This document shows, piece after piece, positions 20,397 through 21,782 of a stretch of 64,000 bases of DNA (position 1 is the first letter of the stretch; every line of letters begins with the position of its first letter). The stretch covers positions 2,547,501 to 2,611,500 of the forward strand of contig NZ_CP077095.1 of assembly GCF_014268885.2 (NCBI RefSeq), read 5' to 3'. The notes under the pieces are model-generated. The model ran no database searches, was not told the DNA's origin, and was given only the letters and a program-made list of their open reading frames with translations. Source of the stretch: Pseudomonas xantholysinigenes. GTDB taxonomy: Bacteria > Pseudomonadota > Gammaproteobacteria > Pseudomonadales > Pseudomonadaceae. A program made the position numbers and the translations under genes.

Positions 20397-21380
20397 TCAC
20401 AGATAGCTCATGACAAAGGCGACCTCGGAGTTCGCCGTGCCTGCTGTCACTGGGCTTGAGCCTCCGTTAGGCAGTGTGCGTATGTAGCGGGCATTCATGG
20501 GGATGGAGAAGCTGCCACCGGTATTTGTCGGGGGCGTGAATGTATATTCCTTGTTGAGTTGGATGGGCTGTAGATTGTTGTCTAGAACTTGCAGTGAAAT
20601 ACCTTGTGCCGTTGAGTTTTTATTCAGGCTGACGATGCCCTGTGTGGCGTTCACGGCGGGGGCTGTCGGGTTGGCAGACAAAGAGTATTTAACCGTTGAT
20701 AGGCCGTTGGAGCACTTGTTCATCTTGATGCTGAATGCTTTGGGGAGGGAAGTGTCACCGTAGTTGGCAAAGTCCCGGGTAAAATGCTCTCCCATTTCGA
20801 CCTGCACATCCGGCGTTTCGCATGATAGTTCTGGAAGCTGCAGGGATGCCAGGCGTAAGCATGGAGGGTTGGGGTAGGGGAACGGTTGAACGACACCGCC
20901 TGAACTTGGCCCGATAGTGTAATAGGCAAGCCCGGCACAGGCTTGGCTGACATCGACAGAGGCAGGAATGAGTATAGAAGTCCTGTAGGGCACGTAGAAA
21001 CCGGCTCTCTGAAGATCTTCCAGCATGTTTCCGTACGTCGGGTTGTCTCGGGTTCGTATTTTCCATTCGATCGTGCCTGAACTGGGATAGGCGCCGGTGC
21101 CACCAAACGGATACTTCCAGGTGGCCGTTTGTATGCCACAAATTGTTTTTCTTCCTGATTCGCTGCTACACGGGCCCACGGTCCCGTCAGTGGTCGACCA
21201 ATTGCTGATGATGAAGCTGTACCTGATCATATTCCCTTCTCGAGTGGCGCCTGCTCCGAGCACTGTAAATGCCAGTGCAGGCGTTGTCAGGCTGACGAGA
21301 AGGGCGAGTACAATAGCGGTCAAATTGATTGAAGTTTTCGCATATTGCAATTGGCTAGGAAATGACGCAAAAGTAATCAT
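20397..21380 (-). CDS. Fimbrial protein / adhesin with C-terminal pilin domain
   Basis: 327 aa. Long polar n-region, then a signal sequence (TAIVLALLVSLTTPALA). Residues ~25-190 form a Cys-containing N-terminal domain without a recognised match; residues ~195-327 are a type-1 pilin-like domain (VEMGEHFTRDFANYGDTSLPKAFSIKMNKC ... GISLQVLDNNLQPIQLN ... ARYIRT ... AGTANSEVAFVMSYL). This two-domain form is typical of tip adhesins of chaperone-usher pili. No chaperone or usher gene is in the window. The ATG overlaps the stop of the upstream lipoprotein frame (ATGA), so translation is probably coupled to that repeat-controlled gene. Confidence 0.82.
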   Translation of the reverse strand: MITFASFPSQLQYAKTSINLTAIVLALLVSLTTPALAFTVLGAGATREGNMIRYSFIISNWSTTDGTVGPCSSESGRKTICGIQTATWKYPFGGTGAYPSSGTIEWKIRTRDNPTYGNMLEDLQRAGFYVPYRTSILIPASVDVSQACAGLAYYTIGPSSGGVVQPFPYPNPPCLRLASLQLPELSCETPDVQVEMGEHFTRDFANYGDTSLPKAFSIKMNKCSNGLSTVKYSLSANPTAPAVNATQGIVSLNKNSTAQGISLQVLDNNLQPIQLNKEYTFTPPTNTGGSFSIPMNARYIRTLPNGGSSPVTAGTANSEVAFVMSYL

Positions 21381-21687
21381 GGTTTGGTTGCACCCTCGAC
21401 AAATGACCAGTCAAACTCAGGGTGCTCTGGTTTTAGTGTGTTGTAGGCTTTGTTTAAGTTGTCGGATTCCAAATCAAGAATGGACGGTTGATGTACGTCT
21501 GAAGAAAAACTCTTACATGCAGAAATGAAGATAAATATACTTGCTAATAATGCTGCAAGGATTATAATGATTGCCTGATTGCCTGATTGCCTGATTGCCT
21601 GATTGCCTGATTGCCTGATTGCCTGATTGCCTGATTGCCTGATTGCCTGATTGCCTGATTGCCTGATTGCCTGATTGCCTGTCGCAT
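21377..21687 (-). CDS. Repeat-controlled small lipoprotein (out of frame in this sequence)
   Basis: Reading leftward, ATG 21687 opens M-R then the octamer repeat (24-nt cycle encoding QAIRQSGN). Beyond the repeat, a clean frame of 64 codons encodes a hydrophobic stretch and lipobox (IIIILAALLASIFIFISAC) and a 46-residue mature part ending SFVEGATKP at TGA 21377-21379. With 14 repeat units the two parts are not in phase: translation from the ATG stops at TAA (21562-21564) just after the repeat. Units numbering 1 mod 3 (1, 13, 16) restore the frame; with one unit the product starts MRQAIIIILAALL, a perfect lipoprotein signal. So this is an OFF state of a slipped-strand switch. A CTG start in the alternate frame exists but is weak. 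Confidence 0.7.
21569..21680. repeat. Perfect tandem octanucleotide repeat, (GATTGCCT)x14
   Basis: 112 bp made of 14 exact copies of GATTGCCT. A unit length not divisible by three, perfect conservation and position inside the 5' end of a surface-protein reading frame are typical of phase-variation repeats. Confidence 0.98.
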
Positions 21688-21782
21688 GTTCAATGTCCAG
21701 TGAGTGAATATTAGAAATTACATTGACACTGACGGCATGATCAATAAGACGATTCTTAAACTCGCTAATTATCTATGATTCA

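Follow-up and report, generated by a model that had tools for sequence, protein, structure and literature searches.

A probable repeat-length switch in a Pseudomonas lipoprotein gene that overlaps the gene of an off-site fimbrial adhesin

Switches that work by repeat slippage have mostly been described in host-restricted pathogens. In the locus described here, as in the tetranucleotide phase-variable genes of Haemophilus influenzae (PMC11868660), a repeat whose unit is not a triplet lies close to the 5′ end of the gene. Like E. coli type 1 fimbriae, governed by inversion of fimS (PMC9096935), it would place a fimbrial function under stochastic control. As in the P. aeruginosa CupD system with RcsB/RcsC (PMC2696094), subunit, chaperone and usher genes of its genome have a sensor-like gene and an RcsB-like regulator as neighbours. 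The open-access literature searched yielded no description of a Pseudomonas fimbrial adhesin controlled by repeat length. We describe an octanucleotide array in Pseudomonas xantholysinigenes and its counterparts in other genomes of the genus, and propose a repeat-driven translational switch, recurrent in Pseudomonas, that acts on a lipoprotein leader probably coupled to an off-site fimbrial adhesin.

The window (the whole stretch of 64,000 nucleotides of P. xantholysinigenes DNA that was analysed) was scanned for exact arrays with periods of 4–12. A single one exceeded 3.25 copies, consisting of 14.0 whole perfect units of AGGCAATC on the minus strand (GATTGCCT on the plus strand) from 21569 to 21680. 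The fourteen perfect octanucleotide units of the preliminary description were borne out by Tandem Repeats Finder (21568–21681, period 8, 14.2 copies, 100% matches), and no period-8 array of at least three copies appeared in 20 single-base shuffles of the window. The array falls within the 5′ coding region of a lipoprotein gene, and its unit length is not a multiple of three. All three frames of the array encode one and the same stop-free octapeptide cycle, RQSGNQAI, with one arginine per eight residues and zero acidic residues. The cassette (20397–21780) has a G+C content of 49%, against 63% for the window, and may have been acquired horizontally.

The candidate ATG start of the lipoprotein (21685–21687, minus strand, as are all window features below) is located 7 bases before the first whole AGGCAATC unit, and a TTG in the same frame as this ATG is found two codons earlier (21693). 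With 14 units the ATG frame ends at a TAA (21562–21564), the present OFF state, and all candidate starts (ATG 21687 and TTG 21693) read outside the lipoprotein frame. The core frame after the array (IIIILAALLASIFIFISAC..., 21380–21571, from sequence reading and alignment) contains a lipobox, ISAC (21515–21526, Cys codon 21515–21517), and this frame offers no ATG, GTG or TTG, either ahead of the array or in the stretch that separates it from the lipobox. The lipobox Cys, preceded by a hydrophobic segment, was invariant in all eight aligned lipoprotein rows; a Pfam search with the lipoprotein gave zero matches at E 1 or better. Sequence reading thus placed the start at 21687, the OFF stop at 21564–21562, the lipobox and the ATGA overlap with the adhesin gene just as had been claimed, and the earlier statement that 13 or 16 units restore the frame is correct arithmetic. 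At the level of sequence rather than of expression, the copy number of AGGCAATC sets whether the full lipoprotein is in frame.

Ten homologous lipoprotein–adhesin cassettes, the window included, were read as DNA from eight Pseudomonas genomes. Of 398 genus genomes searched with a lipoprotein profile, 8 gave matches at E 0.01, six of them real: the window's genome (G000), P. donghuensis HYS (G007), Pseudomonas sp. MN1F (G077), P. muyukensis (G104), G341 (identical in sequence to P. taiwanensis DSM 21245) and G389. The two weak matches, G001 and G316 (E about 0.007), showed neither adhesin nor array on reading and were dropped. A scan of named genomes for the lipoprotein gave 7 loci in 5 genomes, with RIT623 and P. 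vlassakiae as additional genomes. Searches for relatives covering 144 genomes each added zero further cassettes, and none of the 26 pattern matches from a first, adhesin-based genome scan was confirmed as a relative.

A tandem array was found at the same place in nine of the ten cassettes, with differing units and copy numbers. In addition to AGGCAATC ×14 in the window, there were CAAG arrays of 19 units in P. muyukensis, 16.5 in MN1F, 30.5 in G389, 26.5 in P. taiwanensis DSM 21245 cassette C17, 27.5 in RIT623 and 5 in P. vlassakiae, an interrupted CAAG array in P. donghuensis cassette C13 and AAGTAATT ×89 in P. donghuensis cassette C19; P. taiwanensis cassette C31 had no array. The upstream flanks of C13 and C19 were nearly identical and their arrays different. 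In C19, a short CAAG-type run precedes a perfect array, 713 bp long, with about 89 AAGTAATT units (L066, 793–1505). This array has stops in all frames and so is unable to work as a frame switch; it looks like a locked allele or one with a transcriptional role. An eight-residue period in a partial P. anuradhapurensis protein suggests that the lipoprotein gene of this species carries another octamer array. Exact arrays of at least three copies (period 5–20) were absent within 1.5 kb of the match at 26 adhesin loci (L006–L031) of genomes without a lipoprotein profile match, where tetramer arrays were detectable only from six units; one of these loci, L006, contained an apparent lipoprotein remnant with two CAAG units. 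Six consecutive CAAG units occurred in 7 of 398 genus genomes (one hit for the reversed control pattern), at the lipoprotein in five and elsewhere in two (G211 and G219, intergenic by reading).

In-frame and out-of-frame alleles were both present among the cassettes. No ATG, GTG or TTG reaching the lipoprotein end was found in four of them (the window, P. taiwanensis C17, with about 26 CAAG units, and P. donghuensis C13 and C19). In P. muyukensis, G389 and P. vlassakiae, one ATG was in frame with the lipoprotein and another was not, and the lipoprotein of MN1F was in frame from one GTG and one ATG and out of frame from other starts; with several candidate starts in different frames, the ON call for these four depends on the start used. 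In phase-variable genes of H. influenzae, too, alternative start codons lie in different frames, a parallel to several of these relatives. In RIT623 the sole start in the lipoprotein frame was a TTG behind the array, and such a TTG was also present, in frame, in P. muyukensis; initiation there could bypass the array. The lipoprotein of P. taiwanensis C31, the cassette without an array, was open from its own ATG. In-frame alleles encode plausible lipoprotein signal peptides. In G389, the lipoprotein is in frame from one ATG, but the adhesin frame is interrupted (L062).

A P. taiwanensis protein from a record without strain (P0029) has a 63-residue core identical to that of C17, preceded by MNKQASK. 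Reading copy number back from the protein, this N-terminus implies four CAAG units, in frame. The difference between 26.5 and the implied 4 units is the sole evidence for a change of length within a species, and it may instead reflect an assembly difference. The dN/dS of the lipoprotein core was 0.25–0.49 in seven of eight pairs, the eighth being saturated at synonymous sites; these are rough values, since some sequences enter more than one pair and dS exceeds 1 in three pairs. By this measure the lipoprotein is under purifying selection. The comparison (arrays in nine of ten cassettes, mixed frames, partly inferred P. taiwanensis lengths and purifying selection) strongly supported the earlier reading of the repeat as a lipoprotein switch.

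The lipoprotein stop TGA overlaps the adhesin ATG in the sequence ATGA (21377–21380). The ten junctions comprised six ATGA overlaps, one TAATG, two chains of two ATGA overlaps and one 2-base gap, giving a stop/start overlap or an equivalent chain in nine. In the chains (P. muyukensis, L003, and RIT623, L068) a 20-aa frame, similar in both species, bridges the lipoprotein and adhesin genes; the 2-base gap takes the place of the overlap in P. taiwanensis C31. A Shine–Dalgarno-like site for the adhesin, GAGGG (21393–21397, duplex −6.4 kcal/mol, 12-base spacing), is situated inside the lipoprotein 3′ end. It is rather unlikely that the array switches the lipoprotein only, with an adhesin whose translation relies on a ribosome site of its own and an overlap that is no more than compact gene packing. 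This would fit the gap in C31 and the Shine–Dalgarno-like sites found inside the lipoprotein 3′ end at seven of nine junctions tested (−5.8 to −7.6 kcal/mol, 7–12 bases from the adhesin ATG), but it leaves aside the overlap in seven of ten cassettes and the two-ATGA chain through the 20-aa frame in two more. In several relatives, moreover, most of the Shine–Dalgarno-like site or of the adhesin ATG is paired, which also argues against independent translation. In the window the adhesin start region is only partly paired, and pairing varies among relatives (folded without a shuffle control). This partial pairing and the adhesin's own Shine–Dalgarno-like sites speak against strict coupling, and coupling is expected to be partial. 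It is plausible that array length affects the adhesin through the overlap, probably only in part. The switch proposed in the preliminary description was accordingly supported by comparison for the lipoprotein, and its extension to the adhesin is plausible only.

Simple repeats are not exceptional in the window's genome, since a 400-kb sample held 11 other arrays of at least four copies (6-, 7- and 11-base units). The samples of P. muyukensis and of G010, a Pseudomonas without the cassette, held 12 and one, respectively, the latter an octamer, GTTCAAAG ×8 (L138, 4325–4389). Hexanucleotide arrays were seen in the window's genome (L096, L098 and L100) and in P. muyukensis (L110, L111, L116 and L120), several of them within an apparent dispersed intergenic element, and none in the G010 sample; a CAAGCTA ×19.9 array lies between genes in the window's genome (L091, 19202–19340). 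Arrays of the window octamer GATTGCCT also turned up in proteins unrelated to the lipoprotein and in other species, among them Aeromonas, as well as in metagenome proteins. A triple GATTGCCT unit occurred in 2 of 298 genus genomes, the window's genome and G166, where the array is not a relative and is intergenic, by reading beside an EAL-domain-like gene. With the repeat-including frame as query 28 proteins were retrieved, and 0 of the 17 read had the lipoprotein core. Neutral microsatellite growth in repeat-prone genomes, with a decaying lipoprotein and an array without a selected role, would agree with these array numbers (11 and 12 against one), with the recurrence of the octamer in unrelated settings, with an allele that has stops in all frames (AAGTAATT ×89) and with the apparent remnant at L006. 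We consider it improbable, because arrays with different units occupy the same position in several species, dN/dS is below 0.5, and the other arrays of the window's genome sample include none of period 4 or 8 and, at the nine places read, lay between larger genes or in a dispersed element. An action of array length on transcription, promoter spacing or mRNA stability, instead of on the reading frame, would explain why AAGTAATT ×89 is kept although unreadable in any frame, and a rheostat-like repeat has been reported for a Helicobacter adhesin (PMC4081817). Such an action is very improbable. In the window the array follows both the 14-base motif described below and the candidate starts and lies inside the frame; the plausible signal peptides of the in-frame alleles likewise speak for a reading-frame effect.

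The reading that we prefer, with a probability of about three in four, is that the locus is a translational contingency (phase-variation) switch of the lipoprotein and, probably in part, of the adhesin by overlap coupling. At some presumed switching rate, slipped-strand mispairing would add or remove octanucleotide units directly behind the lipoprotein start codon. Since the units encode the same stop-free octapeptide in every frame, only the exit phase would change with array length, and about one length in three would be in frame. In the in-frame state the lipoprotein would be made, and ribosomes at the ATGA stop could reinitiate on the adhesin. In the out-of-frame state, which is the one sequenced, ribosomes would stop about 180 bases before the adhesin, and there would be less adhesin translation, from its own Shine–Dalgarno-like site, perhaps with transcriptional polarity in addition. 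Given that related Pseudomonas species have different repeats in this position, the lipoprotein–adhesin pair very probably acts as a stochastic on/off switch of a surface adhesin.

The adhesin (20397–21380) is a predicted protein of 327 aa with a C-terminal Fimbrial domain (PF00419, residues 187–326, E 2.3e-14, above the cut-off), and its N-terminal part matched MrpH_N at E 0.081, below the cut-off. At a threshold of E 0.001, 102 of 298 genus genomes contained matches to it, most among the matches listed being to the pilin domain only. A large protein search gave 30 proteins, including the window's own and four near full-length matches (P0038–P0041, 59–69% identity). A plasmid search gave 96 records, all below 60% identity and none covering 80% of the query; the best 20 of the 96 covered mainly the pilin domain.

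A chaperone and an usher are encoded in the genome outside the operon of the window adhesin. Two usher matches were obtained, one strong and FimD-like and one weaker and of another kind (all usher NCBIfam scores were below equivalog cut-offs), together with three PF00419 proteins, namely the subunit of the FimD-type operon, a second adhesin and the window adhesin. The FimD-type subunit–chaperone–usher operon is located about 450 kb from the window adhesin, and no adhesin was recognised in the 12 kb read around it; the second adhesin follows a chaperone gene at a distance of about 1.6 Mb from the window. The operon adjoins, by reading, a kinase-like gene, and also a response regulator whose closest resemblance is to RcsB, although its score is below the NCBIfam RcsB cut-off. 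The FimD-type usher system could assemble both the window adhesin and the second adhesin. With the window adhesin as one of two off-site adhesins that this single system could assemble, the switch would decide stochastically whether it is available. P. muyukensis, with two ushers and three PF00419 proteins, resembles the window's genome. P. donghuensis HYS, MN1F, P. taiwanensis DSM 21245 and G389 had 4, 3, 3 and 4 usher matches and 7, 5, 7 and 5 PF00419 matches, respectively, so that a single usher is not general, the one-usher picture holding by count in two of six cassette genomes. One usher match of G389 is split over two frames (G389:C1:4003190-4004834).

A motif search showed a 14-base sequence, AGAATCGTCTTATT (21743–21756), one mismatch from AGAATCGTCTGATT. 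In the window's genome, AGAATCGTCTGATT stands before the window adhesin locus with 1 mismatch, before the other off-site adhesin locus with none and before the subunit gene with 2, the sites being that of the window, L051 1860 and L050 9432. Allowing up to three mismatches, it preceded 21 of 29 adhesin loci, several of which are close relatives, against 0 of 29 for a reversed control, and was absent at eight. The window's genome contained 12 sites at up to two mismatches, whereas the reversed control gave 3; the exact and 1-mismatch sites were those of the two off-site adhesin loci, and the subunit-gene site, one of ten 2-mismatch sites, is by itself weak evidence. TAAGAAT resembles an RcsB box, and the window site is a candidate operator of the RcsB-like regulator.

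These features can be joined, tentatively and at well under even odds, into a tip-swapping fimbria. In such a system an adhesin-less FimD-type usher operon would serve off-site adhesins sharing an RcsB-type box, a repeat-switched lipoprotein leader would determine stochastically whether a particular adhesin is produced, and clonal cells would differ in fimbrial specificity, the repeat unit turning over between species with the position of the switch kept. If true, a random switch would be linked with adhesins that one usher may accept interchangeably. The kept position, with a unit that is a tetramer in some species and one or another octamer elsewhere, would also provide a natural series on the origin and replacement of contingency repeats.

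The locus differs from the H. influenzae genes in its octanucleotide unit, in the Pseudomonas lipoprotein–adhesin pair that carries it, in the replacement of the unit between species and in the possible coupling to a downstream adhesin. In P. aeruginosa, cupD4 (adhesin) and cupD5 (second chaperone) lie within the cupD cluster (PMC2696094), whereas here the adhesins lie elsewhere, one of them with an array before it. E. coli fimS, which lies upstream of the gene for the major subunit, acts by site-specific inversion (PMC9096935), whereas the element here is the length of a repeat before an off-site adhesin.
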